Below are positions 3,482 to 21,555 of a stretch of 21,555 nt of DNA, in pieces. The notes under the pieces are model-generated. The model did not search any database, was not told the DNA's origin, and was given only the letters and a program-made list of their open reading frames with translations. Numbering within the stretch: position 1 is the first letter of the stretch; each line of letters starts with the position of its first letter. This DNA comes from a virus. Made by a program: the position numbers and the translations under genes. The DNA lies in the IMG/VR virus record IMGVR_UViG_3300036944_001072, positions 1 to 21,555 of that record; one strand, given 5' to 3'.

Positions 3482-4878
3482 GCCTCACTCCCTACGCGGA
3501 ATTGATTGCGCGGAAGGCGATTTCGTTCAAGCCGCAAGGGTTCATGGACATTCCAGAATTGAACCCGGAACTGAAGCCGCACCAGGACCATTGCGTCCGC
3601 TTTGCGCTTGATCAGGGATGCGCGGCACTGTTTCTTGATACCGGCCTTGGCAAGACTTTCTGCGCTCTGGAATGGGGCCGGGTGGTTATGGAAAAAACCG
3701 GCAGGCCCGTTCTCATGCTTGCGCCTCTCGCCGTGTCTCAACAACATGAGCGCGAGGCAAAGCGGTGGGGAATTGACGCCATCGCAATCCGTGAACCAGA
3801 GCAGATCACGACCCCACGCATCTATATCGTCAATTATGAACGCCTCGGAAAGTTTGACCCGTCCATCTTCTCCGGTGTCATTCTGGATGAATCATCGATC
3901 CTCAAGAGCTTCACCGGCGTGACAACCCGCGCGCTTATGGCAGCGTTTAAGGATACGCCATACCGGCTCTCATGCTCTGCCACGCCCGCACCTAATGACC
4001 ACATGGAACTAGGCCAACAGGCGCAATTCCTGGGGGTCATGGAAAGCACTGACATGTTGGCGCGGTGGTTCTTTGCCGATCAGGCAAACATGGGAAAATA
4101 CCGCATCAAGGGGCCGGGCGTCACTGACTTTTGGCGGTGGATGGCCTCATGGTCGCGGTGCGTGTCCAAGCCTTCCGACATTGGCTTTGATGACACTGGA
4201 TATGACCTACCACCGCTTGAGATGACCCGTCACGTTATCACGGCTGATAGGTCAATGGATGCCGGTGAGGACAAGTCAGGTCAAATGCGGCTTATCCGTA
4301 TCCCCGACATGTCCGCCACGTCGATCCATAAAGAGAAGCGGCTAACCGTTGACGGACGCGCGGATAAGATTGCCGAGCTGGTTGCGGCGGAACCTGACGA
4401 ACCGTGGATTATCTGGTGTGACACCGACTATGAAGCGGACGCTCTCACCGCTCGCATCCCTGGATCTCTGGAAGTGCGCGGCTCAATGTCGCCTGAGATT
4501 AAAGAGGAAAGGCTCTCGGCGTTCTCTCTTGGTCAGGCTCTCGTGCTGGTGACTAAGCCTTCAATCGCCGGGTATGGCCTTAACTGGCAACATTGCGCTC
4601 GCGTTGGGTTTGTCGGGCTCTCGTTCTCTTATGAAAGTTTCTATCAAGCTATCCGCCGTTGCTATCGGTTCGGACAATCGCGTCCGGTTCAGGTTCATGT
4701 CGCCTGCGCCGATACGGAGGAATCCATCTGGAATGTCGTCAACAGAAAATCAGGCGACCACGATGGGATGAAGGTTGCGATGACAAAAGCCATGCGCGAA
4801 GCTGTTGTCCACAATCGCGGATATGTCTCATATCAACCCACTGTGAAAGCGGCTTTGCCCGCATTTTTGAGGACCTAG
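3478..4878 (+). CDS. SNF2-type DEAD/DEAH helicase
   Basis: 466 aa superfamily 2 ATPase of SNF2 type, without accessory domains. Visible motifs: KPHQ near 34-36, motif I DTGLGKT (54-60), motif II DESS (136-139), motif III SATPAPND (167-174), motif V SIAGYGLNWQHC (about 362-373), and motif VI QAIRRCYRFGQ (390-400), which is the typical SNF2 'QA..R..R.GQ' signature. Such proteins use ATP to translocate on double-stranded DNA. Phages often carry one in the replication region, commonly next to a VRR-NUC nuclease; here a VRR-NUC gene follows three genes later. The gene is coupled to the HTH gene (ATGA) and the methyltransferase starts 1 base after its stop, which suggests the two work together. Confidence 0.92.
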   Translation: MSLTPYAELIARKAISFKPQGFMDIPELNPELKPHQDHCVRFALDQGCAALFLDTGLGKTFCALEWGRVVMEKTGRPVLMLAPLAVSQQHEREAKRWGIDAIAIREPEQITTPRIYIVNYERLGKFDPSIFSGVILDESSILKSFTGVTTRALMAAFKDTPYRLSCSATPAPNDHMELGQQAQFLGVMESTDMLARWFFADQANMGKYRIKGPGVTDFWRWMASWSRCVSKPSDIGFDDTGYDLPPLEMTRHVITADRSMDAGEDKSGQMRLIRIPDMSATSIHKEKRLTVDGRADKIAELVAAEPDEPWIIWCDTDYEADALTARIPGSLEVRGSMSPEIKEERLSAFSLGQALVLVTKPSIAGYGLNWQHCARVGFVGLSFSYESFYQAIRRCYRFGQSRPVQVHVACADTEESIWNVVNRKSGDHDGMKVAMTKAMREAVVHNRGYVSYQPTVKAALPAFLRT

Positions 4879-4879
4879 A

Positions 4880-5818
4880 ATGGACGTTATCAATCAGGAA
4901 GTGACTGAACGCTTTGCGGCTTACAACGCCGATTGCGTGGAGTTTGCAAAGACGATTCCCGACAACTCGATAGACTTTACCGTCTATTCCCCGCCGTTCT
5001 CTAACATCTATACCTATTCGGACAGCGAACGCGACATGGGCAATGTCGAAAGCGATGACGAGTTTTTCGAGAACTACCGTCACCTCATTCGGGAGAAGCT
5101 CCGCATCACGCGACCTGGGCGGCTCTCCGCCATCCACGTCAAAGACATTCCCTACTATCAAGGATCGTCTGAAAACGGGGACAGTGGCCTCCGCCCGTTT
5201 TCGGACCTCTGCACGGCGGCTCACCGGCTTGAGGGCTGGACGTTTCACTGCCGCATCACGATCTGGCGTGATCCCGTCCTTGAGCGCGGTAAGACGAACG
5301 CTCACGGCCTCCTTCGCAAGACCCGCCGATCTGATGCGAGTTTCTGCCGTGTCGGGATGCCTGAATATCTCCTGATTTTCCGCAAGTGGGCAAAGGAGGG
5401 TCAAGAGGACCTTGTGAGGCCGCTGGTCAATCCTGACTATCCTACCGAGTTGTGGCAACAGGAAGCCTCCCCGGTGTGGGATGGTGAAACGATCTGGAAC
5501 TATCAGCTGAACCAGTCCGGCAAGGGTGATTTTGACCTTCGCGCTACGGAAGTCCTCAACGTCAAATCGGCCAAGGATGAGGACGCAATCAAGCACCTTT
5601 GCCCGATGCCACTCAACATCACCCGACGGGCTCTGACGCTATGGTCTCAACCTGGGGACGTTGTGTTTTCACCGTTCATGGGCATCGGCTCCGAGGGATG
5701 GGAATCCATTCGTGCCGGGCGCAAGTTTATCGGCACCGAACTGAACCAGACATACTATCGGCAGGCCGTGAAAAATCTTCACGAGGCCGGTGGTCCTGTC
5801 GCGGATCTGTTCTCATGA
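4880..5818 (+). CDS. DNA methyltransferase, beta-class, SPPF motif
   Basis: 312 aa amino-methyltransferase. The catalytic motif IV is SPPF (37-40, in VYSPPFSNIY) and comes before the cofactor-binding motif I, FSPFMGIGSEG (263-273), with KHLCPMPL (239-246) as motif X. This permuted order is the beta-class arrangement, as in PvuII, CcrM and many phage enzymes. SPPF/SPPY is more usual in N4-cytosine enzymes and DPPY in N6-adenine enzymes, so N4-cytosine is more likely, though not proven. The segment of about 95-235 would hold the target-recognition region. The start is 1 base after the helicase stop. It is clearly not CcrM-like in motif IV, although GcrA homologues lie downstream. It may protect the phage from restriction or mark its genome. 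Confidence 0.9.
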   Translation: MDVINQEVTERFAAYNADCVEFAKTIPDNSIDFTVYSPPFSNIYTYSDSERDMGNVESDDEFFENYRHLIREKLRITRPGRLSAIHVKDIPYYQGSSENGDSGLRPFSDLCTAAHRLEGWTFHCRITIWRDPVLERGKTNAHGLLRKTRRSDASFCRVGMPEYLLIFRKWAKEGQEDLVRPLVNPDYPTELWQQEASPVWDGETIWNYQLNQSGKGDFDLRATEVLNVKSAKDEDAIKHLCPMPLNITRRALTLWSQPGDVVFSPFMGIGSEGWESIRAGRKFIGTELNQTYYRQAVKNLHEAGGPVADLFS

Positions 5819-5982
5819 ACCTCACCGCAATCATCTTCCCCCGTCGTCACGCTCTCACCCAATGGCAATCCGCAAAGGCACGCTATGAGGCCGCTGTGAG
5901 GGCAAGGGACACACGCGGACAACATGGGGCATGGGAGGCCCTGCGTAGGGCAACTGTGCGGAAATTGAAGGTGGGGGCGTGA
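5815..5982 (+). CDS. Small basic protein between two methyltransferases (55 aa)
   Basis: 55 aa; ATG at 5815 overlaps the TGA of the methyltransferase gene (ATGA) and its own stop overlaps the GTG of the next gene (GTGA). The sequence is Arg/Lys-rich and helical (QWQSAKARYEAAVRARDTRG, ending RKLKVGA), so it could bind nucleic acid or a protein partner. No family recognised. The tight coupling on both sides is the main reason for calling it. Confidence 0.65.
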   Translation: MNLTAIIFPRRHALTQWQSAKARYEAAVRARDTRGQHGAWEALRRATVRKLKVGA

Positions 5983-6551
5983 AGGTTCTCGTTGCGTGTG
6001 AATATTCCGGCACCGTGCGGGATGCATTTATCCGGGGGGGGCATGACGCAATGTCGTGTGATTTGCTGCCAACGGAAGTGCCCGGGCCGCACCATCAAGG
6101 AGATGTTTCGCCCTTACTGGATCAAGGGTGGGATCTGATGGTTGCTCATCCGCCTTGCACGCATCTGGCGGTCAGCGGCGCTAGGCATTTTGCTTCCAAG
6201 CAGGCAGCGGGGCTTCAACAGGAGGCTCTCGATTTTGTGCGGCTTCTGATGGATGCACCCATTGCCAGGATAGCCATTGAAAATCCCATTTCAATCATTT
6301 CCAGCCGCATCCGAAAGCCCGATCAGGTCATTCAGCCTTGGCAATTCGGACACGGCGAAACCAAGGCGACGTGCTTTTGGCTCAAGAACCTGCCAAAGCT
6401 AGTGCCAACTAATATCGTAGAAGGTCGGGAGCAGCGGGTTTTCAGAATGCCGCCTGGGCCTGACCGATGGAAAGAGCGCAGTCGAACCTTTGCCGGGATT
6501 GCGGAAGCAATGGCCGACCAATGGGGATCTGAATGGAGGCTGAGGGCGTGA
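5979..6551 (+). CDS. Small C5-cytosine-methyltransferase-like protein
   Basis: 190 aa from GTG 5979. The N-terminus resembles C5-MTase motif I (VLVACEYSGTVRDAF, then GGHDAMSCDL, where the acidic residue would bind the AdoMet ribose). HPPCTHLAVSG (57-67) supplies the PC dipeptide of motif IV with the potential catalytic Cys60. AIENPIS (99-105) corresponds to the ENV-type motif VI. The protein is about half the length of classical m5C enzymes and has no recognisable target-recognition domain, yet is of a size seen often in phages. Whether it methylates cytosine, acts on another base or nucleotide, or needs a partner for specificity cannot be said. It sits between the SPPF methyltransferase and the nuclease in one coupled operon. 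Confidence 0.75.
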   Translation: MKVLVACEYSGTVRDAFIRGGHDAMSCDLLPTEVPGPHHQGDVSPLLDQGWDLMVAHPPCTHLAVSGARHFASKQAAGLQQEALDFVRLLMDAPIARIAIENPISIISSRIRKPDQVIQPWQFGHGETKATCFWLKNLPKLVPTNIVEGREQRVFRMPPGPDRWKERSRTFAGIAEAMADQWGSEWRLRA

Positions 6552-6877
6552 ACCCAGAGGAACAAATCCACCGGGCAATTGTGAAATATCTCCGCCTCGC
6601 ATGGCCGGAAGTTCTGTTCTTCCACCCGGCCAACGGTGAGAAGCGCGGTATCCAGGCAGCGGTCAGGCTCAAGGCAATGGGCGTCATTCCAGGCGTGCCC
6701 GATCTGGTCCTGATCTTTCCGGATGGCTCTCATGGCTACTTGGAAATCAAACCGGAGAAGAAATACGCCACCCCCGTGCAGAAAGCCTTTCACGCGGAGC
6801 TAACCGCCCGCAACGTCAAAGTCGCCGTCGTCCGGTCAATCGAAGACGTGGCGCAAACCCTTGAGGAATGGATATGA
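6548..6877 (+). CDS. VRR-NUC domain nuclease
   Basis: 109 aa from GTG 6548, which overlaps the preceding TGA (GTGA). An in-frame ATG at 6533 is possible, but it would overlap the upstream gene by 19 bases and include the GGAGG that I take as the ribosome-binding site. The whole protein is one VRR-NUC domain: EEQIHRAIVKYLR, FFHPANGEKR, GVIPGVPDLVLIFPDG with the catalytic Asp at about 52, LEIK with the Glu/Lys at 66-68, and a following Gln (VQKAF). This is a PD-(D/E)XK metal-dependent nuclease. Family members cut branched or flap DNA and, in phages, typically accompany SNF2 helicases. Here both are in one operon separated by methyltransferases. Confidence 0.9.
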   Translation: MNPEEQIHRAIVKYLRLAWPEVLFFHPANGEKRGIQAAVRLKAMGVIPGVPDLVLIFPDGSHGYLEIKPEKKYATPVQKAFHAELTARNVKVAVVRSIEDVAQTLEEWI

Positions 6878-7314
6878 GTGAGAAGATTACATGGACCGAC
6901 GACATGAAGGAGGTTGTTCGGAAACACTGGGCAGACGGTCGGACCACGCCGGATATTGCGGACTCCATTAATACCGATTTCGGCACCAGTCTGACCAAGA
7001 GCGCCATCGGTGGTCTCATCACCCGCATGGGCTATGAAAAGGCGTGCGAGATGGAGGCGTTGACATCCAAGCTCGTGCAAGAGGAAATCGACAAGGCCTG
7101 CGCCAAATATGCAGCCAAGTCCGCCGATGTGATTTTCAGGCTCCGATATAAGGAAAATGAAGAACCCCGCGTTGTTGCAGCACGGGCGGAGGCTATTGCC
7201 CAGATTGTCAACAGGACCGGCGCGAGTATCAAGCTCATTGCGAAGGCATGGGGCTGCAATGACGATTTCATTTCCCCTCATTACCCGCGCTGGAACATTA
7301 CCAATGGCCGCTAA
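6874..7314 (+). CDS. GcrA-like HTH protein, short form
   Basis: 146 aa, ATG at 6874 overlapping the preceding TGA. Residues 5-55 (ITWTDDMKEVVRKHW, DGRTTPDIADSIN, then SLTKSAIGGLITRMGY) follow the pattern of the GcrA N-terminal HTH, 'W.......L..LW..G.S...IA..L....T..AV.G...R.G'. The rest is helical (MEALTSKLVQEEIDKAC, VVAARAEAIAQIVNRTG) and ends IKLIAKAWGCNDDFISPHYP. It lacks the C-terminal cysteine-containing segment of GcrA. It therefore looks like a DNA-binding protein without the sigma70-contact domain. Its last 11 bases overlap the long GcrA homologue, which suggests the two are made together. Confidence 0.65.
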   Translation: MSEKITWTDDMKEVVRKHWADGRTTPDIADSINTDFGTSLTKSAIGGLITRMGYEKACEMEALTSKLVQEEIDKACAKYAAKSADVIFRLRYKENEEPRVVAARAEAIAQIVNRTGASIKLIAKAWGCNDDFISPHYPRWNITNGR

Positions 7315-8065
7315 TCCCATCACCGACTATGACCGGCGCATCGTCCGCGAAATGTGGACGGCAGATTATTCCATCGATCAAATCAAGGCAAAGATCAACC
7401 GGGCTCGCGGGACGATCCAATACATCGCCGCCTCATTGCGTCTGGGGCCTAAGCCTGTATCGCCTCTTGTTACAGTCTGGACGCCTGACATCCTGGCCGA
7501 CCTCGAAGCTGAATGGTTTGCTGGTGCCACGGCAAGCGGAGTGGCGAGGGTTCTCAACAAGAAGTATGGAACCAGCTTCACCCGCAATGCCACGATTGGC
7601 AAGATCCACCGCATGGGTTTGATCAGGTCCAGCGAGGTCAGCGACTTGAACAAGCGCGAGAACGCGATGACGTCTCCGATGATCCGCCGCGCCACGAACG
7701 ATAACCGCAAGGTTGAGAAGGAGAAGAAGACCAAGCGCGACAAGCCCAAGCCGAAGCGCACGGCAATTCCAAATCCCGCCGCGTCCTTTGGGGCAGACGA
7801 CAATGTGCGGGAAGCCTGGGTCATTGTCACCGATGCGGCATGGGACGTTCTGCCCGGCACTGAGCCTAAGACGCTTCTCAACCGGCGAAACTTTGGCGAA
7901 TGCAAATATCCGGTCGGTATGAATGAACCAGAGCAGCGGTTTTGTTGCGCTAAAACCGACCAAACCTATTGCGACGCTCACCGCAAGATCATGTATCGCC
8001 CGCCGTCTAGCAGCGACCGTGACGCACTGCGCCTGCGCGGCTTGTTGAAGGCAACCGCTCGATGA
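7304..8065 (+). CDS. GcrA family regulator with an extra N-terminal HTH
   Basis: 253 aa from ATG 7304 (MAANPITDYD). Two HTH-like units are visible. The first, at about 8-50 (DRRIVREMWTADYSIDQIKA, TIQYIAASLRLG), is weak. The second, at about 58-107 (VWTPDILADLEAEWFAG, then SFTRNATIGKIHRMGL), is strongly GcrA-like. A Lys/Arg-rich linker follows (EKEKKTKRDKPKPKR). The C-terminal part has GECKYPVG, FCCAKT, YCDAHRKIMYRPP, matching the C-terminal GcrA domain that contacts sigma70. GcrA of Caulobacter is about 170 aa and activates sigma70 promoters containing CcrM-methylated GANTC. This longer version may redirect host transcription or act on phage promoters. An upstream ATG at 7259 is a less likely start. 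Confidence 0.8.
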   Translation: MAANPITDYDRRIVREMWTADYSIDQIKAKINRARGTIQYIAASLRLGPKPVSPLVTVWTPDILADLEAEWFAGATASGVARVLNKKYGTSFTRNATIGKIHRMGLIRSSEVSDLNKRENAMTSPMIRRATNDNRKVEKEKKTKRDKPKPKRTAIPNPAASFGADDNVREAWVIVTDAAWDVLPGTEPKTLLNRRNFGECKYPVGMNEPEQRFCCAKTDQTYCDAHRKIMYRPPSSSDRDALRLRGLLKATAR

Positions 8066-8466
8066 TTACGCACAGTCTCAATGACGATGACACCGTGACC
8101 ATCAGGGACGGTATTAAGACCTTGACGGTTCCGATGCGCGAGGCCGTTAACCTCGCATATGCCATAATTGACGATCTGGACCCGACCGGAGAGGATTCGC
8201 CCATCAATCGGCTGGTCAATCCTGGGAACGGGACTAGGCCACGATACGGGGCACAGAAACTTGCAATGCTCAAGGCAATGTCGGCAGGCAAGCGGTCTGC
8301 AACCTATCTCGGGCAACTGATCGGGCGCTCATCGAACCATGCCGCCCAGCAACTCCTACGGATGCAGCGCATGGGCTTTTGCGCGTCCTCCACCATCCCC
8401 GGCACGGCAAACCGAAAAGAGTGGGAAATCACCGCGAAGGGACGCCATTGGCTGGCCGTGAACTGA
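8062..8466 (+). CDS. Putative winged-helix DNA-binding protein (134 aa)
   Basis: 134 aa; ATG at 8062 overlaps the stop of the GcrA gene (ATGA). The first 50 residues are beta-rich (DDDTVTIRDGIKTLTVPMRE). The C-terminal 70 look like a winged helix: KLAMLKAMSAGKRSATYLGQ, then SNHAAQQLLRMQRMGFCAS, with a short wing and a final EITAKGRHWL. This resembles MarR/PadR-style 'learn lineage then end with T.KG...L' layouts in phage proteins. It precedes dnaB directly (TGATG overlap), so a role in origin recognition or regulation is plausible but unproven. Confidence 0.6.
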   Translation: MITHSLNDDDTVTIRDGIKTLTVPMREAVNLAYAIIDDLDPTGEDSPINRLVNPGNGTRPRYGAQKLAMLKAMSAGKRSATYLGQLIGRSSNHAAQQLLRMQRMGFCASSTIPGTANRKEWEITAKGRHWLAVN

Positions 8467-9842
8467 TGAAAGAACTCCACAACATCGAAGCCGAACAAGC
8501 CGTTTTAGGCGCGGCTCTCTACCGCCACTCCATTATTGAGGCGCTGACCGATCTAATCCCCGATCATTTCCATGAGGCCACGCATAGGGACCTCTGGGCG
8601 ACGATGCAACGGCTTTCACGGGAAGGGCGTGCGCCTGACCCATTGACTGTCTCAGAGGCTATGTCAGGCCATCAAGGGCTTACCGGGTTAGGTGGGTCCG
8701 CATATCTCGCCGACCTCTATTCACGCGGGATGCCATCAGCGGCGAAGGACCATGCCGATATTGTCCTGAACTGTGCCCGGCTCCGAGACTTGCGGCAGGT
8801 TGCGTCTGACGTTTCCGACATGGTGACACCTGGGGCCGATGCCTTCTCCATCATTGCACACGCCGAAAAGACGTTCGGCAAGATGGTTCAAGACGCCGCA
8901 CCGGCATCAGAAAATCTAATAGACGGCCAGACCTCGGTTCAGGAAACGCTCGAACAGATTGAGAAGGAAATCAGCGAGGGGCGCGAGAAGGGCTACATGA
9001 CTGGGCTCCGCTGCGTGGACTATCGCCTGCGGGGCTTGCGTCCCGGTTGGCTGGTAGTGATTGCAGGGCGTCCGAGTATGGGAAAGACTGCGCTCGCGCG
9101 AGCATTAGCGTTCGGAGCAGCACGCAAGACGAAAGCGCAAGTCGTGTTCTTCGCGCTTGAGATGGATCGTCGGGAACTTGACGAACGCACTCTGTCTCAA
9201 CTGTCATTTGAGCAATTCGGTCCTGATGATGCGATTGAGTATAGGCGCATCGGCGGGGATATGACTAGGGACGAACTGGTGAGACTTCGCCGGGCAGCGG
9301 CCCAGGTTCCCGATAATTTCGTCATCGACGACAGCCCGATCCTGTCCGTTGACTATGTTCGGCGTCGGGTTCTCGCACTCAAGCGCAAGGGCCCGGTTGC
9401 AGCGGTGTTTATAGATTATCTGCAAATCATGGACCGGCCCGACATGAAGGGCCGCAATGAGGCATCAGTGATTGGGGAGATGACTAAGGGGCTCAAGCAG
9501 CTTGCCAGAGAGGCGCAAACGTGCGTGGTGCTTTTATCCCAGATCAACCGGGGTGTTGAGCAGCGGGACGACAAGCGGCCTCAATTGTCGGATCTGCGTG
9601 AATCCGGCGCAATCGAGCAGGATGCAAACGCGGTCCTGTTTCCCTATCGGGACGTGTATTATCTCGAACGCGCAGAGCCTGACCGCAATAAGTCAGAGGC
9701 GAAATGGCTAGACTGGCAGATGGCCGTGATGGACAATCAAACCAAGATGCAGGTCATTGCCGCGAAGGTCCGTCAGGGATCAATCGGAACCGACCAGCAG
9801 ACCTATTTTGCACCCTTTGACGTGGTGGAGGACGTGAAGTGA
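8466..9842 (+). CDS. dnaB: Replicative DNA helicase DnaB
   Basis: 458 aa, the usual length for DnaB. ATG at 8466 overlaps the preceding TGA (TGATG) and gives the classical beginning (NIEAEQAVLGAAL). The N-terminal domain covers about 1-100, then a linker and a RecA-type ATPase: Walker A GRPSMGKT (201-208), ALEM with catalytic Glu (230-233), Walker B AVFIDYLQIM (313-322), SQINR (358-362), and the conserved RPQLSDLRESGAIEQDA. It unwinds the phage replication fork in the 5'-3' direction. The following gene resembles phage replication initiators or loaders, giving a typical self-sufficient replication pair. An N-terminal extension back to 8379 is possible in frame but would lie inside the previous gene. 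Confidence 0.95.
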   Translation: MKELHNIEAEQAVLGAALYRHSIIEALTDLIPDHFHEATHRDLWATMQRLSREGRAPDPLTVSEAMSGHQGLTGLGGSAYLADLYSRGMPSAAKDHADIVLNCARLRDLRQVASDVSDMVTPGADAFSIIAHAEKTFGKMVQDAAPASENLIDGQTSVQETLEQIEKEISEGREKGYMTGLRCVDYRLRGLRPGWLVVIAGRPSMGKTALARALAFGAARKTKAQVVFFALEMDRRELDERTLSQLSFEQFGPDDAIEYRRIGGDMTRDELVRLRRAAAQVPDNFVIDDSPILSVDYVRRRVLALKRKGPVAAVFIDYLQIMDRPDMKGRNEASVIGEMTKGLKQLAREAQTCVVLLSQINRGVEQRDDKRPQLSDLRESGAIEQDANAVLFPYRDVYYLERAEPDRNKSEAKWLDWQMAVMDNQTKMQVIAAKVRQGSIGTDQQTYFAPFDVVEDVK

Positions 9843-10555
9843 GCAGGCACTCTTTTGACCCTGAAGTCGCCCAGGCCGTAGGCGTTAACGCTGCGGTCAT
9901 TTATCAGAATATCGTCTGGTGGGCCGAGAAGAACGCTGCCAATGAACGCCACATCCATGCCGGTCGCGTCTGGACCTATAACAGCGTCGGGGCGTTTGAA
10001 ACGCTCTTTCCGTATCTGTCCACCAAGCAGGTCAGACTGGCCCTTGAGAAGCTGGTCGAGGCCGGGCTTTTGGTCACTGGAAACTTCAACCAATCCCCTT
10101 ACGATAGGACCAAATGGTATTCCCCAAATGAGGATTTCCATTTGTCCAAAACGGCAAATGAATTTGACCAGAAGGGCGAACCTATACCAGATAGTAAACC
10201 AGTTGATAAACCAGATAACAGCCAGCCGCGCGAAGCCTCCTTCGATCTATGGTGGGAAGCCTACCCTCGGAAGGCGGCTAAAGGTGCTGCTAGGAAGGCA
10301 TACGCCTCAGCCTTGAAGAAGGTTCCGGCGGGCAGCCTCTTAAAACTCACACAGGCTTTTGCCTTCGATAAGGAAACAAGATTCATTCCGCACCCGGCGA
10401 CATGGCTCAACGCGGAACGCTGGATCGAAGCCCAGATCGAACCCGACACAACCCCCAGGATGAGCAATGAGGAAGTGAGAATGATGTTCTGGACCAAGAA
10501 CCGCTATTGGAACTCCGACTGGGGTCCGCGTCCTGACAAGAGGGCCACGGCATGA
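9839..10555 (+). CDS. Phage replication initiator/helicase-loader-like protein
   Basis: 238 aa from GTG 9839 (GTGA overlap with dnaB). The N-terminal 95 residues form a winged-helix of the type found in phage replication proteins: AQAVGVNAAVIYQNIVWWAE, VWTYNSVGAFETLFPYLS, KQVRLALEKLVEAGLL. A polar linker at about 105-135 follows. The C-terminal part is FDLWWEAYPRKAAKGAARKA with helices and AKPATWL-like HPATWLNAERW, a module common at the end of phage replication proteins. Directly downstream of dnaB it is best explained as the partner that brings DnaB to the phage origin. It has no AAA+ motifs, so it is not a DnaC-type loader. Confidence 0.75.
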   Translation: MSRHSFDPEVAQAVGVNAAVIYQNIVWWAEKNAANERHIHAGRVWTYNSVGAFETLFPYLSTKQVRLALEKLVEAGLLVTGNFNQSPYDRTKWYSPNEDFHLSKTANEFDQKGEPIPDSKPVDKPDNSQPREASFDLWWEAYPRKAAKGAARKAYASALKKVPAGSLLKLTQAFAFDKETRFIPHPATWLNAERWIEAQIEPDTTPRMSNEEVRMMFWTKNRYWNSDWGPRPDKRATA

Positions 10556-11058
10556 GCTGGTATTGCATCCGCGCTGCCACGCGCTCCGAGGCAAAGGTCA
10601 TCAAGGGGCTGTCCGAGATAGGGGTTGAAGCCTATTGCCCGATGGAAACGAACTGGATCACCCATGCTAGGACGACTGAACGCAAAGACCGCCCACTCCT
10701 GCCGGGTTATATCTTCGCCACCCTCACCGACGCCGACATTTGGCGCGTGAACCGCCTCCAAGGGGTTCTAGGCATCATCGGTGCCCCTGGATTGCCAATG
10801 CCCCTCCCTGACCGCTTTGTGGGGCTTCTAGCGTTCCACGAATGGCTAGGCGCATTTGATCGGACCATGCCCTACACGGAATTGAAGCTGATCCCGAAAC
10901 CTGGGATGGCCGTGAAGGTGACGAAAGGCCCGCTATCTGGCGCTCTGGCCGTGGTCGCAGATGGCAAGCATACTGAGAACCGACTTCGCGTCCTCATTGA
11001 CGGGTTCGGGCGTGTGAGGGAATATGTCGTCAAGGCCGACGCGGTGGAGGGGATCTGA
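10552..11058 (+). CDS. NusG/RfaH-like transcription antitermination protein
   Basis: 168 aa, ATG at 10552 overlapping the previous stop (ATGA). The N-terminal NGN domain is visible: SWYCIRAATRSEAKVIKGL at 2-20, GVEAYCPMETNW, and RPLLPGYIFATL, where the 'PLLPGYIF' segment is the NusG/RfaH hallmark. The C-terminal KOW region is GMAVKVTKGPLSGALAVV followed by RLRVLIDGFGR, matching 'G..V.V..GPF.G..G.V'. NusG paralogues bind RNA polymerase and make it resist pausing and termination. It is the third-to-last gene of the early operon and lies just before the late intergenic region, so antitermination into packaging, spike and lysis genes is a reasonable inference. Confidence 0.88.
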   Translation: MSWYCIRAATRSEAKVIKGLSEIGVEAYCPMETNWITHARTTERKDRPLLPGYIFATLTDADIWRVNRLQGVLGIIGAPGLPMPLPDRFVGLLAFHEWLGAFDRTMPYTELKLIPKPGMAVKVTKGPLSGALAVVADGKHTENRLRVLIDGFGRVREYVVKADAVEGI

Positions 11059-11726: not shown

Positions 11727-12236
11727 ATGGCACGCACTGGACAGCGCGGCATTAGCGCCGCCGCCCCTTTCACCGGCCCGACCGTCTGGGCAACCTGCAA
11801 CGGCCTGCCCCATACGGCAACCAGTGGCACCGACACCACGCCTGTCGTGACTGAGGAATACGTTGCCGAAGTGTTCGTTCCGATGAATTGCATCGTGACC
11901 GGCTTCAGCGTCCTGAATGGTTCGGCAGTCGCAGGCAACATGCAGATTGCGCTTTACGATAGCGCGGGTGGGCTGGTCGCTACGACTGCATCCACCGCCG
12001 CTTCCGGCACCGCTGCCTATCAAGCTGTTCCGTTTTCCTCGACCGTCGCTTTGCGCGGCCCGGCTGAATATTTCATTGGCCTTCAGAACAACAACACCTC
12101 GAACCGCTTCCGCTCTCACACGGTCGGTGTTCATGGTGCGAGCAAGAAGACCGGCCAGACCTACGGCACCTTCACCGCTCTTACTCCGCCCACGACCTTC
12201 ACAACGGCGCTCGCTCCTATCGGCGCGCTGTATTAA
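11727..12236 (+). CDS. Beta-rich putative virion-associated protein, first late gene
   Basis: 169 aa with ATG 11727 and a good GGAAGGAAA ribosome-binding site. The composition is Ala/Thr/Ser/Gly-rich, typical of phage structural proteins. Predicted strands include EEYVAEVFVPMNCIVTGFSV, MQIALYDSAGGLVATT, and AEYFIGLQNNN. The pattern suggests a jelly-roll or galectin-like domain as found in head-decoration and spike proteins. No firm family. It is the first gene of the late transcript, immediately before the small terminase, whose start is 16 bases after its stop. Confidence 0.55.
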   Translation: MARTGQRGISAAAPFTGPTVWATCNGLPHTATSGTDTTPVVTEEYVAEVFVPMNCIVTGFSVLNGSAVAGNMQIALYDSAGGLVATTASTAASGTAAYQAVPFSSTVALRGPAEYFIGLQNNNTSNRFRSHTVGVHGASKKTGQTYGTFTALTPPTTFTTALAPIGALY

Positions 12237-12252
12237 AAATACAGGATGAAAA

Positions 12253-12570
12253 ATGAGCGAACCTTCGGAAACACCCAAGAAGCGGGGTAGGCCTTTGGGC
12301 TCTCCGAACAAGGTGATACCGGAGGTTCGTCTCCTTGCCCGTGCCTATACGGAAGGTGCGGTTAAGACCCTGGCTGAGATTATGGATCGGGGTGAGACAG
12401 ACGCGGTGCGTATCTCTGCAGCCAATAGCCTCCTAGACCGTGGGTTTGGTCGCCCTGCCCAAGCAGTTCACGTCGGACAGGATGAGGAAGCCGGTCCCAT
12501 TCAACAGGTCATCCGTTGGGCGGTGAGTGAGACCGAGGCAATCAAAGACCCGAGTAAGCGTGCAGACTAA
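12253..12570 (+). CDS. terS: Putative small terminase subunit
   Basis: 105 aa. It opens with a basic AT-hook-like segment (PKKRGRPLGSPNKV, about 8-21). Then come helices ARAYTEGAVKTLAEIMDRGE and VRISAANSLLDRGFGRPAQA, a pattern frequent in phage proteins annotated as small terminase ('GRP.GS.NK...A..LLDRG.G.P'). TerS recognises phage DNA and regulates the large subunit. The assignment depends mostly on this pattern and on the position directly upstream of, and overlapping, the large terminase. An AGGATG sequence 5-6 bases before the ATG serves as ribosome-binding site. Confidence 0.65.
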   Translation: MSEPSETPKKRGRPLGSPNKVIPEVRLLARAYTEGAVKTLAEIMDRGETDAVRISAANSLLDRGFGRPAQAVHVGQDEEAGPIQQVIRWAVSETEAIKDPSKRAD

Positions 12571-13825
12571 AGAGTTTGTCATTCCCTACCGGCCCCGTGC
12601 CGTGTGGGCAGACTTCCACAATGACACTAGCCGGTGGAAGGTGGTTGTCGCTCACCGCCGAGCGGGCAAAACTGTAGCTCTGATTAACCACGCCATCCGA
12701 GACGCCTTCGCGTGTCCGCATGAGCGTCCCAGGTTCGCCTACGTTGCGCCGTATCTCAGTCAGGCTAAGAGCGTGGCATGGGACTATGCCAAGACCTTCT
12801 GCGCTCCGATCCCCGGAGTGACGTTCAATGAGGCCGAGTTGCGGGTGGATCTGCCCAACGGGGCGCGGATCAGGCTATTCGGTGCGGATAACTACCATTC
12901 GCTCAGAGGCATGTATTTCGACGGTGTGATTCTTGACGAGTTCGGGGACATGGACCCGAGGGCATGGACGGAAGTCATCCGCCCGGCATTGTCAGATCGG
13001 CAAGGTTGGGCAGCGTTCGCCGGGACACCTCGCGGCAAGAACGCGTTCTATGACATGCGGAACCGTGGCCTGAAACATCAGGACGGTTGGACGGCATGGG
13101 TTCTAAAGGCATCGGAGACCGGCATCCTTTCGGCAGACGAGTTGAAGGACGCCCGCGATAGCATGGACGGCAACGCCTACAACCGGGAATATGAGTGTGA
13201 CTTCGAGGCTTCCGTTGAGGGGGCCTATTACGCTGACGAGATGGCTAAGGCCGAGGCAGAGAAGCGCATTACGCGGGTGCCGATTGAGCCTACCGTTCGG
13301 GTGGACACATGGTGGGACCTGGGCATTGATGACGCTACGGCTATCTGGTTTGTGCAGGACGTGGGCAAGGAACGCCGGATAGTCGATTACCTCGAGGTGT
13401 CCGGTGAGGGCCTCCCGCAGATCGCCAAGCGGCTAGACGCCAAGGGATACCGCTACGGACGCCACATCCTGCCACATGACGCCGAGGCGCGGGAATTGGG
13501 CACTGGTGTGAGCCGGATTGAAACCCTCCACGCTCTGGGGGTGAATAACACCGAGGTCATACCGGCCCAGGCTGTTGCCGATGGGATTAACGCAACCCGG
13601 TTGATGCTGTCCCGGTGCTGGTTCGATGCCGAACGCTGCGAGCGTGGGCTAGAGGCCTTGAAGCAATATCGCCGGGAATGGGACGGCAAGCGTCAAGTGT
13701 GGCGCGAACGTCCGTTGCATGACTGGTGTTCTCACGCGGCTGATGCGTTCCGATATGGAGCATTGTCCCGCCTCCCGATTAAATCTCCTTCGGCACTGAT
13801 CATGCCCAATTTCGGAGTTGTCTGA
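12560..13825 (+). CDS. terL: Large terminase subunit (ATPase-nuclease)
   Basis: 421 aa from GTG 12560, giving the typical opening EFVIPYRPRAVWADFH; a GTG at 12527 in the same frame would overlap TerS by 44 bases. Walker A is AHRRAGKT (31-38), Walker B is GVILDEF (122-128), and the coupling motif AGTPRGK is at 154-160. The RNase H-like nuclease domain has WWDLGIDDAT with Asp at 253, and a late conserved Asp in HDWCSHAADAFRYG near the C-terminus. This enzyme pumps DNA into the procapsid and cuts it. The next gene starts 1 base after its stop, so there is no sign of a deletion scar. A portal gene would be expected here but is not present. Confidence 0.93.
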   Translation: MQTKEFVIPYRPRAVWADFHNDTSRWKVVVAHRRAGKTVALINHAIRDAFACPHERPRFAYVAPYLSQAKSVAWDYAKTFCAPIPGVTFNEAELRVDLPNGARIRLFGADNYHSLRGMYFDGVILDEFGDMDPRAWTEVIRPALSDRQGWAAFAGTPRGKNAFYDMRNRGLKHQDGWTAWVLKASETGILSADELKDARDSMDGNAYNREYECDFEASVEGAYYADEMAKAEAEKRITRVPIEPTVRVDTWWDLGIDDATAIWFVQDVGKERRIVDYLEVSGEGLPQIAKRLDAKGYRYGRHILPHDAEARELGTGVSRIETLHALGVNNTEVIPAQAVADGINATRLMLSRCWFDAERCERGLEALKQYRREWDGKRQVWRERPLHDWCSHAADAFRYGALSRLPIKSPSALIMPNFGVV

Positions 13826-14347
13826 ATGACCTATTCTTTGGGCGGTCTCCAAGCCGTCGCGTCGAACACCATGACCCGCCCGGCTGATACCACGGCCTAC
13901 GCTCAATATGACCTGGTGGCGAACAGCACGACTGCCGGCAACGTCACTGGCATTGTGTTTCCCAACGCCGTGCGCTTTGACCTTGAGTGCGCCCGCTTCG
14001 AGCGTATCCGCCTTCGCAAGTCTGGCACCAGCCTGACGAACGCATCCTTCCGCGTTTATCTGTTCACGGCTCTCCCGACCCTCTCGGTGGGTGATAACGC
14101 GACGTTCAATTCGTCTAGCGTTCTTGCCGTGGATGACATGGACAAGCTCGTCGGCTGGTTTGACGTGACGATGGATCGGTCTGGCGCTGCTGGTGCGCGT
14201 GGATCGGGCACGCCGAACAGTGGCCCGGCTCTGACCATCAAGCCCGCGTCTGGCACCTCGCTGTATGGCCTGATCGAAGCGACTGCCGCCTATACCCCGA
14301 CGTCGGCTGAGACGTTCAACGCCGTGCTTGAGGGCCAGTGGTCCTAA
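13826..14347 (+). CDS. Beta-rich putative virion protein downstream of TerL
   Basis: 173 aa, ATG immediately after the TerL stop, with GGAG about 10 bases upstream. Contains YAQYDLVANSTTAGNVTGIVF-like strands, FERIRLRKSGTSLTNASFRV, and LFTALPTLSVGDNATFNSS. The segment 'LRKSG...NA.FRV.LF...P....GDN..F' recurs in phage structural proteins of unknown function next to head genes, and a head-decoration or connector role is plausible. No signal peptide or membrane segment. It is followed directly by the spike/fiber gene with no gap, so the two may be assembled together. Confidence 0.6.
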   Translation: MTYSLGGLQAVASNTMTRPADTTAYAQYDLVANSTTAGNVTGIVFPNAVRFDLECARFERIRLRKSGTSLTNASFRVYLFTALPTLSVGDNATFNSSSVLAVDDMDKLVGWFDVTMDRSGAAGARGSGTPNSGPALTIKPASGTSLYGLIEATAAYTPTSAETFNAVLEGQWS

Positions 14348-16267
14348 ATGCCGTTCATTACCCGCCTCCCGCCTCTGACCGGCGCTGACCCCTATCCAGA
14401 CGCTCTACTGGCCCTGGATTTCGTCGGTGCACGTCGTGGTCCGCAGTATTACAAGTCGGGTGGTGTGACGGTCTCTGACATCACGCAGATCCCCGGCTGG
14501 ACCTACACTGGCGGCACCCCTGCTGGCACCGGGTCCTACGCGCCGAAAGCTGACGGCTCGTTGCAGTTTTTCCCGAGTGTGACGAACCTGGAAACTTATT
14601 CCGAGCAATTTGACAATGCGGCATGGAGCAAGCAGGCCGCGACGATCACAGCCAATGCAGTCACGGCCCCAAACGGGACGCTGACGGCGGACAAACTTGA
14701 AGAAACTGCCACTACAAATATCCACTGGGCGTATCAAGACCCTGCCGCCGTCGCCAATACGACATATACGCTTTCCGCCTACCTGAAGGCTGCGGAACGC
14801 ACAAAAGCCCGCGCCGCGCTGATAAACTCTGATGGCACGAATGTTTCGGAGACAATTGTTGACCTAACTGCGGGGTCTATCGTTTCCGCCACCGGCACGG
14901 CAACAATCACGTCGGCTGGTAACGGCTGGTGGCGCGTGACGCTAACCGGCACGTTAAATGGCACGGCCACAAGGGCCAGAACCTACCTCCAGACGGCGCT
15001 TGCCGATAACTCGTTCAACTACGCAGGCACCGCCGGTTCCGGCATCTACATCTGGGGAGCCCAACTCGAACTCGGCTCCACGGCCTCGACCTATATCCCC
15101 ACCACGACGGCGGCTGTGACCGTCGCGCCGGCCCGCATCACGGACGCGGGGTATCTGGCGGAGGAGGCGCGGACGAACCTGCTGGTTTACAGTCAGGACT
15201 TCACAACCCAAGGCGCTGGATTTTGGCAGCTACAAGCGTCCAGCACGGTTTCTGGTAACGCAGCAACAGCCCCAGACGGCACCGCGACTGCTGACCTCTG
15301 GACTCGGGTGACGACCGCCGCAAGTTATTTTACGCAGACCAAAACAAAGGCAGCATCCGCGACCACTTACACGCATTCAATGTATGTAAAAAAGAGCGTC
15401 GGAAACTACTACGCGATCAGAATACAGGGTACATACCCTGCACGAGTGGACGCTGTTTTTGACCTTTCGACCGGCACTATTGCCACCGCAGCGGTTGTAT
15501 CTGGGTCATTTACCAGCCCTTCAGCTACGATTGAACCGGCGGCCAACGGCTTCTATCTTGTGACCATCACCGCAACGTCTGACGCCACAACGGCCCTTCA
15601 GGTGGTTGGTTCATTCCTTTCGACAAACGTTCAGGTTGACGGCACAGACAGTGCGTCCAACTCCGCAGGTTACATCTGGCAAGCTGACTTGCAGGTAGGC
15701 TCCTTCGCCACCAGCCCGATCCCGACGACCTCCGTGGCCGTGACCAGGGCGGCGGACGTGGGGTATATCTCGGGGCTGACGGTGCCGAGTGCGTTCACCT
15801 ACGCCATTCAGGTCGTTCCGAATACTGTCACGTCTGGGTCTTTCCCCTATGCGGTTGCTCTTTCAGACGGCACTAATAACAACCGGTTTGAGTTTTATGG
15901 TTCGACTGCAAATGCGGTGGGCTACGTCGCGTCCGGCGGAACGGCGCAGTTCAACAATTCAGTGGCCAGTGTTTCATCTGTTGGCTCTGCCTCAAGAGAT
16001 GCGATCTCCGTTTCCGGGACCGCACTCCTTCGGGCGATGAATGGCGTCACTAGAACGGGCGGGACGCTTAGTTCGTCGCCAGCCTCTGCGGTCACTAGAC
16101 TTGAGTTCAAAACGGGGTCGGCCTCTTACTTCGCGCAAAAGGTCACCATCTCACCCCGCGCAGCCAGTGCCGACGCTCTCCAGGCTGTCACCATAGGCCC
16201 TGTGTCCTTCGCCAACGACAATGCCCCCGACGACATGCGGGCAGCTCTCTGGGGGTGGGCGGCCTAA
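14348..16267 (+). CDS. Phage spike/fiber protein with two tandem carbohydrate-binding-like modules
   Basis: 639 aa, ATG directly after the previous stop. After an N-terminal 75 residues come two related modules. Module 1 (about 80-262) starts NLETYSEQFDNAAW, then VTAPNGTLTADKL, and ends YIWGAQLELG...TYIPTT. Module 2 (about 277-470) starts NLLVYSQDF, then ATAPDGTATADLW, and ends YIWQADLQVG...SPIPTT. This repeated pattern is that of the 'phage head spike fiber' type domain, a LamG/CBM-like beta sandwich probably binding cell-surface glycans. A further beta-rich domain (about 475-610) and a short tail (FANDNAPDD) follow. It is the likely receptor-binding protein. Whether it sits on the head or tail cannot be told. 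Confidence 0.75.
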   Translation: MPFITRLPPLTGADPYPDALLALDFVGARRGPQYYKSGGVTVSDITQIPGWTYTGGTPAGTGSYAPKADGSLQFFPSVTNLETYSEQFDNAAWSKQAATITANAVTAPNGTLTADKLEETATTNIHWAYQDPAAVANTTYTLSAYLKAAERTKARAALINSDGTNVSETIVDLTAGSIVSATGTATITSAGNGWWRVTLTGTLNGTATRARTYLQTALADNSFNYAGTAGSGIYIWGAQLELGSTASTYIPTTTAAVTVAPARITDAGYLAEEARTNLLVYSQDFTTQGAGFWQLQASSTVSGNAATAPDGTATADLWTRVTTAASYFTQTKTKAASATTYTHSMYVKKSVGNYYAIRIQGTYPARVDAVFDLSTGTIATAAVVSGSFTSPSATIEPAANGFYLVTITATSDATTALQVVGSFLSTNVQVDGTDSASNSAGYIWQADLQVGSFATSPIPTTSVAVTRAADVGYISGLTVPSAFTYAIQVVPNTVTSGSFPYAVALSDGTNNNRFEFYGSTANAVGYVASGGTAQFNNSVASVSSVGSASRDAISVSGTALLRAMNGVTRTGGTLSSSPASAVTRLEFKTGSASYFAQKVTISPRAASADALQAVTIGPVSFANDNAPDDMRAALWGWAA

Positions 16268-16319
16268 CTGGCCTCCCGCCAACCATCACCCCATCACATC
16301 GTGAAAGGAGGGCTCGCGC

Positions 16320-18564: not shown

Positions 18565-18677
18565 TTGACTTCCTGTTCGGCATGGCGGTCGGCACGTTCC
18601 TGACCATGGGCGTGATCGGGGTCGTCATCGGTGCCGCCCTCCACTGGATCCGGTCTGCAGTCGCGAGGTCCCTATGA
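18561..18677 (+). CDS. Small membrane protein of the lysis module (38 aa)
   Basis: 38 aa from GTG 18561 (GTGA overlap). One long hydrophobic helix spans residues 3-30 (FLFGMAVGTFLTMGVIGVVI, then GAALHWI), with a basic end (RSAVARSL). Coupled on both sides (its TGA overlaps the i-spanin ATG), so it is probably real. It may be a small pinholin-like or regulatory peptide; no family recognised. Confidence 0.6.
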   Translation: MIDFLFGMAVGTFLTMGVIGVVIGAALHWIRSAVARSL

Positions 18678-19087
18678 TCCCGGTCCGTCTTTACCTGATG
18701 GCCGGTGTCGCCGCGGTGTTCGTCGCACTGGTCGCCGCTGTGGGTGTGCAGTCTGCCAGGCTGTCCCACGCCAAGGCCGACCTGATGGCCGCTAGAGACG
18801 AACTGAAAGGGGCGCAGAACGTGGTCGAGGCCTACAAGGCCACCATCACCGCCCGTGACGCCAAAGCCCGTGCAGACGCCGCCCTGGCCGTCTCTGAGGC
18901 TGGCGAGCTGGCCGCCCTCTACAAGTCCACATGCAAAGGAGCGTTTAATGCGGGTTACGCCTCTCGCCGCTGTCCTGATGGGTCTGTCCCTGACGGGCTG
19001 CCAGACCTTCACGCTACGCAGTCCGCTGGTCGTTTCGCCGGCTCCGACGATCTGTCCACCCAGTCTGGCGGCACCCGTCCCCGCTGA
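18674..19087 (+). CDS. Inner-membrane spanin (Rz-like)
   Basis: 137 aa; ATG 18674 overlaps the previous stop (ATGA). It has an N-terminal transmembrane segment (LYLMAGVAAVFVALVAAVGV at about 6-25) followed by a helical, probably coiled-coil periplasmic region (ARLSHAKADLMAARDELKGA, VVEAYKATITARDAKARADA). A less structured C-terminus follows, with two Cys residues (STCKGAF, SRRCPDG). The topology and the out-of-frame lipoprotein gene that begins inside it are the hallmarks of an Rz/Rz1 pair. These connect the inner and outer membranes and fuse them in the last step of lysis of Gram-negative hosts. Confidence 0.8.
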   Translation: MIPVRLYLMAGVAAVFVALVAAVGVQSARLSHAKADLMAARDELKGAQNVVEAYKATITARDAKARADAALAVSEAGELAALYKSTCKGAFNAGYASRRCPDGSVPDGLPDLHATQSAGRFAGSDDLSTQSGGTRPR

Positions 19088-19300: not shown

Positions 19301-19332
19301 AGCCCCTCGGTCACCATGCCGGGGGGCTTTTT
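19301..19332 (+). terminator. Rho-independent terminator of lysis operon
   Basis: AGCCCCTCGG at 19301-19310 pairs with CCGGGGGGCT at 19319-19328 (10 pairs with one G-U wobble) around the loop TCACCATG. A TTTTT run at 19328-19332 follows. It lies 54 bases after the Rz1-like stop and should end the rightward late transcript before the att-like region and the convergent integrase gene. Confidence 0.85.
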
Positions 19333-19379
19333 GTTGTCCGGTTAAGTCGCGGAAACGGTTAGACAATCCGAACCTAACC

Positions 19380-19390
19380 CATTGAAAACA
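19380..19390 (+). repeat. CATTGAAAACA direct repeat, copy 1
   Basis: Eleven identical bases recur 46 bases downstream at 19426-19436, between the GGTTAGACA copies. Possible arm-type integrase or excisionase site. Confidence 0.5.
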
Positions 19391-19425
19391 CTCAGACGGC
19401 CAATGGTCGGTTAGACACGGCAAGA

Positions 19426-19436
19426 CATTGAAAACA
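19426..19436 (+). repeat. CATTGAAAACA direct repeat, copy 2
   Basis: Second copy of the 11-mer at 19380-19390, 9 bases after the second GGTTAGACA. A GCAG/TCAG trinucleotide context is shared after both copies (CACTCAG and CATGCAG), slightly extending the similarity. Confidence 0.5.
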
Positions 19437-19511
19437 TGCAGCTAGGTCCGTCCCCTAGGGACTGCCACCGCGAGATTTTAGCACTGATTTCATTCAACAA
19501 TTCGGCCAGAT

Positions 19512-19538
19512 TGTCTAACCGGGTGAACGGGTTAGACA
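19512..19538. repeat. Perfect inverted repeat TGTCTAACC/GGTTAGACA (possible att core)
   Basis: Two 9-bp arms at 19512-19520 and 19530-19538 flank GGGTGAACG. The spacing suits two recombinase monomers on opposite sides of a crossover region. It ends 10 bases before the integrase stop codon. An alternative reading is a bidirectional terminator stem for int, but no T-run follows on the minus strand. Confidence 0.55.
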
Positions 19539-19548: not shown

Positions 19549-20571
19549 TCATTTGGCCTTTTTCATCGCCCGATCCGCCAGACGTTCCTGATCGGCAGAC
19601 GCTGTGTAGGTCGCGACCTCCGACAGATTCTTGTGTCCGGTGATCGACATGATTTCATTTGCGCTGCATCCGGCTTCCGCCAAGCGACGTGCTGCCGCTT
19701 TCCGCAGACCGTGCGGGGCAGACCGTGGCGGGAGGCCCGCAGCCTGGGCGGCATCAGTGAACCAGTTCGTAAAACCTGCCGGACTGAACGGCTGACCGTA
19801 TTGCGTCTGCACGAATGTGAGCTGGTCGCGCGGTACCTGGTCGATCTCTGCCTGAAGCGTCCGGTGAATAGGGATCCACAGATTGGTCCGTCCACCTGAC
19901 TTGGCCTGCGCGACAGCTATTCGACCGTCCTTGACGTGCTGACGGCCCATTGTGACCACGTCTGACCGGCGCTGGGCGGTATAGAGCAACAAGTGCAGGG
20001 CCAGACGCTGACGGGTGCCTGTGGGCCAGTAGGCCTCGAACCTGGCAATGTCGTCCTCTGACCAGGGCCTGAACCCCTCACCAGTCTTTCGCGGGCGACG
20101 CATCCCCGCCATCGGATTGTCCTTGCGCCAGCCATGCTCGACAGCGTGGGTCAGGAGAAGCCGCAGGACACGGCGCAGGCTGTATTCGTCCTTTTTCTGC
20201 TGATCGAGCAGCTTGACGATGTGGCGATATTCCAGACCGCTGACCGGCAGATGGCCGTGGACCGCCCTGAACTTGTCGATCACCAGGCGATATTTGCGCT
20301 GGGTCTTTGGCCCAATGCCTGTGAACCGGCTAGAACGATAATAGGAGACGCACAGGGTGCTGATTGACCCTGGCAAGGTTCGCTCTACCCCTGCGCCTTC
20401 AGACGGCCCTGTGACCGTGTCCAGGGCGCTCTGATAGGCCTCCATGAACTCCCTCGACCCAGGCAGACCGGGCAGGGCAATCCGTGCAGCACCTGGCCGG
20501 CGGAAATAGTGCCGCCAGACCCCGTGTCTGTCCTGATAACGCTGGATCCATCGCAGCTTTAGGTCGGTCAT
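19549..20571 (-). CDS. int: Tyrosine recombinase/phage integrase
   Basis: 340 aa from ATG 20571, which overlaps the previous gene's TGA (ATGA); an upstream start at 20595 is possible but lies inside that gene. The N-terminal DNA-binding part contains RYQDRHGVWRHYFRRPG (an AP2-like arm-binding segment), and the SAM-like core-binding domain spans about 80-165. The catalytic domain has Arg in YTAQRRSDVVTMG, Lys in VAQAKSGG, HGLRKAA (His-x-x-Arg), GHKNLSEVATYTASA with the second His and the nucleophilic Tyr. All residues needed for activity appear present. It should integrate the element at a host attB. The candidate attP lies immediately downstream. Confidence 0.95.
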   Translation of the reverse strand: MTDLKLRWIQRYQDRHGVWRHYFRRPGAARIALPGLPGSREFMEAYQSALDTVTGPSEGAGVERTLPGSISTLCVSYYRSSRFTGIGPKTQRKYRLVIDKFRAVHGHLPVSGLEYRHIVKLLDQQKKDEYSLRRVLRLLLTHAVEHGWRKDNPMAGMRRPRKTGEGFRPWSEDDIARFEAYWPTGTRQRLALHLLLYTAQRRSDVVTMGRQHVKDGRIAVAQAKSGGRTNLWIPIHRTLQAEIDQVPRDQLTFVQTQYGQPFSPAGFTNWFTDAAQAAGLPPRSAPHGLRKAAARRLAEAGCSANEIMSITGHKNLSEVATYTASADQERLADRAMKKAK

Positions 20572-20765
20572 CTGATCGCCAGGGCGTCGTCCCACAGGTT
20601 TGCAGGGGGTTCGCTTTCATCCCGCGCGCTTGCGTCTGGGTGTGTCAAGCGCAGTTCATAGGCCCCATCGGGACGCAGAACGATGCCGGTGACCGCCTGG
20701 CCGAGGGCTGTGGCGGTTTTCATGGCCCGCTTGAGGGTGGCTTGGCTGATGGCGCTGCGGGTCAT
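20568..20765 (-). CDS. Small integrase-associated protein (65 aa)
   Basis: 65 aa; ATG 20765 overlaps the upstream TGA (ATGA), and its TGA overlaps the int start (ATGA). It begins TRSAISQATLKRAMKTATAL, then VTGIVLRPDGAYELRLTHPD. Small proteins of the form 'ALKRA.KAA...G..V......PDG.I.L' are common directly upstream of integrase genes in alphaproteobacterial prophages. Their role is not established; an excisionase or integrase-accessory function is inferred from position. Confidence 0.65.
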   Translation of the reverse strand: MTRSAISQATLKRAMKTATALGQAVTGIVLRPDGAYELRLTHPDASARDESEPPANLWDDALAIR

Positions 20766-21046
20766 GGCGCTGACACCTTGGGTTTTTCGCCATAAGGACC
20801 GCGAGGCCCTTGTGCGGCCCATGAACCTGCCAGTGGGCTTGTCTCGCTGATAACCGTGACGATGATGTGGCGCATGTGCCTGGGCTTGGACACGCCACAT
20901 TCAATCAGGGCATTGACTACCGTGGACCCATATTCGTGGACGATTTCCCGCACCTCTGGTGGGAGGCTGTCTATGCGGTCCATTCGCGCCCGGCGCTTGT
21001 CGTCAATCCACTGTTGATTGCTGGGTTCAGATCGGCGCTCCGTCAT
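20762..21046 (-). CDS. Hypothetical protein upstream of integrase (94 aa)
   Basis: The ATG at 21046 shares a base with the previous stop (TGATG) and has AAGGGGG about 6 bases upstream; a GTG at 21049 is an equally coupled alternative. The N-terminus is charged (RRSEPSNQQWIDDKRRARMD), the middle is RIDSLPPEVREIVHEYGS, followed by VVNALIECGVSKPRHMRHII. The 'LP.E.R..VHEYG..VV.AL...GV.....' segment suggests a helical protein. No family recognised. Confidence 0.6.
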   Translation of the reverse strand: MTERRSEPSNQQWIDDKRRARMDRIDSLPPEVREIVHEYGSTVVNALIECGVSKPRHMRHIIVTVISETSPLAGSWAAQGPRGPYGEKPKVSAP

Positions 21047-21555
21047 CACCCGCCCCCTTGCATGTTCAGGGCGGCCTCTGCCTGTGCAAGCATGGCCTCT
21101 ACGGCGCGGGGGTTGCCAGCCACCTGGACCTGAAACCGACTGTCGATCAGGAAGAAGCCCAAGGCCTCCCGCAACCTCTCCGCCTCCGTATCCACCTTGA
21201 GCAAACCATGACAGGCGTCAGCGTATAGCTGCTTCCACCGCGCCACCTCGGTCTCAAGGTCGGCCAGCCGAGAGGCGGGGATGAGGGCCGACAGTTCGGC
21301 CTGATCGGCGCACACTGACCGCCCGCCAAGGAAGGTCATCCACCACACGACCATAGGTCGCTTCGGGTTCTGACTGTCGCTCACAAAGTCCATCGTCACC
21401 GGCAACAGCCACTCGCTGCCGGGGGTGAGGGTGTTCCAGTCCCCGGGTCGATACGTCGAACCAGTCCCGGTACACCGATGGCAGATAGGACCGCCACGGT
21501 CCATGTGGCTGAAGTCAGTTCCACCGCAATACACGCAGGGCTTAAGCACGCTCAT
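21046..21555 (-). CDS. Zinc-ribbon protein with helical C-terminus (169 aa)
   Basis: ATG at the extreme window end (21555-21553); an earlier start outside the window cannot be ruled out. The N-terminus has two Cys pairs, CVYCGG (7-12) and CHRC (25-28), forming a zinc ribbon. The middle holds a hydrophobic strand region (SEWLLPVTMDFVSD, RPMVVWWMTFLGG). The C-terminal half is helical and probably coiled-coil (ASRLADLETEVARWKQLYAD, EAERLREALGF, AVEAMLAQAEAALNMQ). No family recognised. It is the first visible gene of the leftward integrase operon. Confidence 0.65.
   Translation of the reverse strand: MSVLKPCVYCGGTDFSHMDRGGPICHRCTGTGSTYRPGDWNTLTPGSEWLLPVTMDFVSDSQNPKRPMVVWWMTFLGGRSVCADQAELSALIPASRLADLETEVARWKQLYADACHGLLKVDTEAERLREALGFFLIDSRFQVQVAGNPRAVEAMLAQAEAALNMQGGG

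Follow-up and report, generated by a model that had tools for sequence, protein, structure and literature searches.

A lambda-like viral record carrying terminase, spike and lysis genes without portal or capsid genes

Phage satellites of the PICI, P4 and PICMI types have no large terminase (TerL) of their own and depend on that of their helper. To our knowledge, known satellites either use a small protein that redirects the packaging of the helper or make their own capsids. Capsid-forming PICIs (cf-PICIs) have capsid, portal and connector genes of their own and take only tails from elsewhere, and Streptomyces satellites also have capsid and packaging genes (PMC10690885). P4 and PICIs average approximately 10 kb, and PICMI concatemers are packaged in full-size capsids (PMC10803314). 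In the gene transfer agent RcGTA, a capsule-binding head spike, made of a fibre on a jelly-roll base, sits at the capsid vertices (PMC7296036).

The DNA analysed here (the window, 21,555 bp, which make up an entire IMG/VR virus record; Table 1) has the map of a lambda-like temperate phage. Like cf-PICIs, it is an integrating element with its own TerS and TerL; unlike them, it lacks its own capsid, portal and connectors and carries lysis genes. With PICI, P4 and PICMI it shares an integrase and the lack of virion structural genes, whereas these satellites are smaller and have no spike of their own. PICIs use the TerL of the helper and supply only a TerS or a redirecting protein; the window encodes a full-length TerL in which the Walker A (HRRAGKT, residue 43), Walker B (VILDEF, residue 134) and nuclease motifs are all intact. 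Within the record, the portal and major capsid genes expected of a complete tailed phage were not found, and the particle-building structural genes are absent, as in a phage satellite. No satellite type in the literature compared combines TerS, TerL, spike and lysis genes with the lack of both portal and capsid.

Table 1 Features of the window.
Feature	Position	Strand	Basis or remark
Early left operon, proximal part: HNH, DUF1367 protein, weak SSB-like protein, ERF, small ORFs	3..3141	-	
Early right block: helicase, methyltransferase, GcrA-like proteins, DnaB, replication initiator, NusG-like antiterminator	3478..11058	+	
DUF4082-like protein, 169 aa	11727..12236	+	Opens late block; Pfam DUF4082 below cut-off, E 2e-5
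Probable TerS, 105 aa	12253..12570	+	Position; phrog_15261; homologues immediately 5' of TerL in L007, L008, L013, L020, L021, L049
TerL, 432 aa	12527..13825	+	Terminase_6N, phrog_2
Predicted jelly-roll-like virion protein (vir), 173 aa, possible spike base	13826..14347	+	Structure model
Spike/fibre, 639 aa, two GTA head-spike-fibre domains	14348..16267	+	phrog_5939 tail protein
Spike–holin gap, 52 bp	16268..16319	+	AAAGGAGG ribosome site
Probable holin, 113 aa	16320..16661	+	Precedes lysis cassette; hydrophobic segments in translation
Small membrane-type protein, 93 aa	16658..16939	+	Translation; G001 has a 93-aa gene likewise before MPE
Metallophosphoesterase-like protein (MPE), 386 aa	16939..18099	+	phrog_7339
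Endolysin, 143 aa	18133..18564	+	phrog_465, E 1e-50
Rz-like spanin	18674..19087	+	phrog_89; weak LysB match
Terminator-like hairpin closing late operon	19301..19328	+	11 pairs, T tail
attP	19352..19538	.	CGGTTAGACA arm-type repeats either side of tRNA-like core; between Rz and integrase
Tyrosine integrase	19549..20595	-	phrog_1, E 6e-38; convergent with late block
Early left operon, distal part (g31, g32, g33)	20568..21555	-	Last 127 bp = exact end of contig G416

The genes for TerS, TerL, the jelly-roll-like protein, spike, holin, endolysin and Rz form one contiguous run, and the late operon is unbroken from TerS to the terminator-like site without any morphogenesis gene. Searches of both strands with Pfam, PHROGs, NCBIfam and portal and MCP HMMs built from relatives found no portal, protease, scaffold, capsid or tail-assembly gene, which bears out what an earlier interpretation made from the letters alone (the sequence-only reading) had claimed of the window. 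A hidden divergent portal or capsid gene was also considered and rejected: the longest gene without assignment encodes 173 aa, such genes are too short, and the custom HMMs were silent. The whole 21,555 bp contain no Ns, no exact end repeats and no tRNAs. The DUF4082-like protein is probably a virion surface protein, and its homologues occupy the same position ahead of TerS/TerL in L004–L008 and G005. MPE homologues in other phages are 57–64% identical, several of them adjoining an endolysin gene; the holin candidate had no family match in Pfam or PHROGs. A terminator scan was overall not above chance, and the hairpin 3' of Rz was its strongest site.

A viral TerL scan returned 224 relatives; the analysis retained 80 of them, and the nearest is 76% identical. 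Among the closest (68–76% identity), a portal gene lies downstream in all of the approximately 15 that are long enough to judge (approximately 14 viral contigs with at least 2.5 kb downstream, and the Caulobacterales MAG L117) and a capsid gene in most; the portals are of the phrog_1216 type where tested. The contigs L004–L019, with TerL at 68–76%, resemble the window in the DUF4082-like and TerS genes upstream (several contigs) and in accessory genes between TerL and portal (some), and differ from it in that a portal is present in all with enough sequence. Rhodoferax phage P26218 belongs to the same TerL group and is more distant than these. The distant TerL relatives that seemed portal-less mostly have other portal types, with no type assigned in L051, L129 and L137. 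Because the window branches within a portal-bearing clade in the TerL tree (support 100/99), the absence of the block is a derived loss. Plasmid terminase relatives were set aside, all being less than 60% identical, and integrase and TerL searches of 398 genomes of the order of L117 found a close TerL in L117 alone.

The gene after TerL is vir, as described in the sequence-only reading; the spacing of 1 base given there is in fact 0 intergenic bases, with the TerL stop abutting the vir ATG at 13826 (TGA-ATG) and the spike ATG at 14348 directly following the vir TAA (14345–14347). The junctions are therefore as tight as had been claimed, yet they lose their value as evidence bearing on a deletion, in either direction, because the next start lies 0–1 base past the TerL stop in five relatives as well (L008, L013, L014, L015 and L018). 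The unusual point is the identity of the gene after TerL, not the spacing of the junction. A vir homologue also follows TerL in Caulobacter phage Lullwater. Separately, the interval between TerL and portal was observed to be an insertion hot spot for surface-type genes (L014, 1410–3036; L015, 2306–4840; L018, 5179–9083); its contents include a lipase-like gene (L014), a tail protein and an O-antigen acetyltransferase (L018), and a gene for an 844-aa unknown.

The protein after TerL that the sequence-only reading called a beta-rich virion protein, vir, is predicted by AlphaFold (pLDDT 83) to be all-beta and jelly-roll-like, with weak jelly-roll matches among PDB structures. The NCBIfam GTA head-spike-fibre domain (NF048003, E 9e-81), which marks an RcGTA-type head spike, occurs twice in the spike, and the spike matches RcGTA Rcc01080 (PDB 6tb9) with E 1e-29; folded alone, it reached a pLDDT of 33. 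The RcGTA head spike (Rcc01079 base and Rcc01080 fibre; PMC7296036) and the window share the fibre domain, and vir is a candidate counterpart of the jelly-roll base. No sequence match was found between vir and Rcc01079, and the window spike, unlike the RcGTA fibre, is without the LGLGL N-terminal anchor. By analogy, the vir–spike pair may set sugar-binding spikes of the element's own on a borrowed particle. Adjacent jelly-roll-like and GTA-spike-fibre genes, resembling the pair of base and fibre in RcGTA, were observed in two different phage genomes (L139, 12579–13097 and 10804–12582; window, 13826–16267), and a vir homologue adjoins the spike gene in G001.

G001 (IMGVR_UViG_3300046005_001691; 36.1 kb) is a podovirus-type temperate phage, judged complete from a 126-bp overlap of its ends across which the portal ORF continues. 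Its order is TerL, portal, scaffold, MCP, head-tail, vir, spike, further virion and ejection genes, MPE, endolysin, integrase and left operon. G001 and the window have in common the vir–spike pair, MPE, endolysin, a convergent integrase, an ERF/HNH left operon and a circular map, putative in the window; in contrast to the window, G001 has portal, scaffold, capsid, tail and ejection genes, and its TerL lies on another branch (30%). In G005, a portal and a capsid gene are likewise found between TerL and MPE. The position of the spike varies among relatives—before the portal (L169, L185 and L230), in the portal–MCP interval (L156 and L205) or after the tail genes (G001, L196 and L206). Because it precedes the portal in some of them, one deletion at the spike/holin boundary is enough; the two separate deletions that the order of G001 alone would imply are unneeded. 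An ancestor with the order TerL-vir-spike-portal-...-holin would have lost the block from portal to ejection genes (portal, scaffold, major capsid, tail and ejection proteins) by one deletion in the 52-bp spike–holin gap, which gene order indicates as the most parsimonious site of the missing block. The ORFs flanking it are intact.

The attP core resembles the anticodon arm of tRNA-Arg(CCT). In the integrated prophage relative L318, the same arm motif lies between int and a tRNA, and in most other genomic relatives tRNA genes flank the integrase. Because DNA of the window lies on both sides of the two-armed attP, the record does not represent a prophage in its integrated state. Of the parts expected of a mobile unit, the integrase, attP, initiator and DnaB are present, and we infer that the DNA closes into a ring. 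With the ends joined, HNH (3–350) would finish in an ATGA overlap with g33; this overlap was downgraded as a proof of closure, because HNH would then be 55–92 residues shorter at its C terminus than same-subtype relatives. Neither end had a match when compared with phage DNA. The only near-identical stretch among the compared loci is an exact 127-bp overlap of the window (21429–21555) with the end of contig G416 (43334–43460; L340, 8001–8127; IMGVR_UViG_3300036944_000900). The overlap has a length typical for de Bruijn assembly and appears to mark a graph branch point at the start of g33 with k = 127; the window thus probably stops on the right where the assembly graph broke, and not at a natural terminus. 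G416 is a 43-kb low-GC phage-like contig (42% GC versus 58% in the window), in which the GC content changes abruptly and the last approximately 760 bp hold GC-rich small genes leading into g33; it is an assembly-graph neighbour of the window, possibly a chimera or the left operon of a variant. It was rejected as the missing half of the window, given the lack of portal, MCP or TerL profile matches, of any other match to the window and of a similar GC content. A structural block would not fit between the integrase or lysis genes and the early genes of G001, L155, L112, L301 and L313. Synteny suggests that the two ends of the window meet in the early left operon; because the spacing from int to early genes in relatives leaves no structural room, any piece absent between them is most likely small early-gene DNA.

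We favour, with modest confidence, the reading that the window is an essentially complete, attP-joined replicon of approximately 21.5 kb that derives from a temperate phage, has lost its whole virion-morphogenesis block and depends on a helper; this probability and those that follow are judgements rather than computed values. Such an element would integrate and excise by its own integrase and replicate by its own initiator and DnaB. Its TerS and TerL would mark and cut its DNA, a related helper podovirus would supply portal, procapsid and tail, with the element TerL docking on the helper portal, and its own lysis genes would open the cell. Two unit lengths (43.1 kb) would suit the 36–45-kb genomes of the phage group. 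The best-fitting of the options raised from the letters alone is accordingly a satellite-like element that brings its own terminase and spike. No sibling with the same architecture was found in IMG/VR scans with TerL, vir, MPE, initiator, integrase, spike, helicase and g33 or in genomes scanned with TerL, scans that may not cover records near-identical to the window. The window is a single example in these scans, which showed no recurrent lineage distinct from phages, and neither a helper nor a capsid-size gene was identified. A full lysis set is, as far as we know, rare in satellites and counts against the satellite reading. We put forward only tentatively, as an unlikely possibility, that the element represents a new satellite type, with its own terminase, lysis genes and head spikes and a borrowed portal, capsid and tail, re-dressing helper particles with its own receptor-binding spikes.

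The lack of siblings also suits a serious rival, to which we grant a minor but appreciable probability—a defective phage or prophage in which the structural block was lost recently and which still excises, is not adapted to parasitise a helper and is at most complemented by its parent. A single deletion would suffice for it and the full phage-like lysis and replication sets are retained, but no parent phage was seen (nearest TerL 76%), and a parent in the same sample should make the assembly branch at the deletion. The block is probably truly absent, a statement that covers helper-dependent element and unproductive deletion derivative jointly. We consider it improbable that the contig is incomplete and that portal, capsid and tail genes lie, in an unusual order, within the early left operon between the HNH end and the g33 end of the window. 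Fragments are common among IMG/VR records of this size, HNH appears cut short and the 127-bp overlap probably reflects a graph break at the right end; yet the late operon is already complete inside the window without structural genes, in no relative examined are structural genes found in this interval, which holds early genes only (spacing from int to ERF/HNH or to hel being short), and the G416 end upstream of g33 is approximately 760 bp of GC-rich, non-structural small-gene DNA. The suggestion that the genes lie outside the window therefore fares poorly. An assembly chimera that skips the structural block is very unlikely: the contig is metagenomic and the GC of its neighbour G416 shifts abruptly in the last 760 bp, but the window has no Ns, TerL, vir, spike and holin are full length at gene boundaries, and a 127-bp k-mer graph (k inferred from the overlap) could not join at a few similar bases.

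If the helper-dependent reading holds, terminase, spike and lysis genes without a particle would be a missing combination between the two satellite types. The element would test whether a TerL works with the portal of another phage, and its spikes could alter which cells the borrowed particles bind. Were it a deletion derivative only, it would still show how a satellite could arise from a phage in a single step. A defence-gene scan of the window gave generic helicase and methyltransferase matches only. Downstream of methyltransferase genes, at 6868–8065, lie two overlapping reading frames that resemble GcrA, an alphaproteobacterial cell-cycle regulator family; together with the methyltransferases, they point tentatively to a host among the alphaproteobacteria and to regulation linked to methylation.
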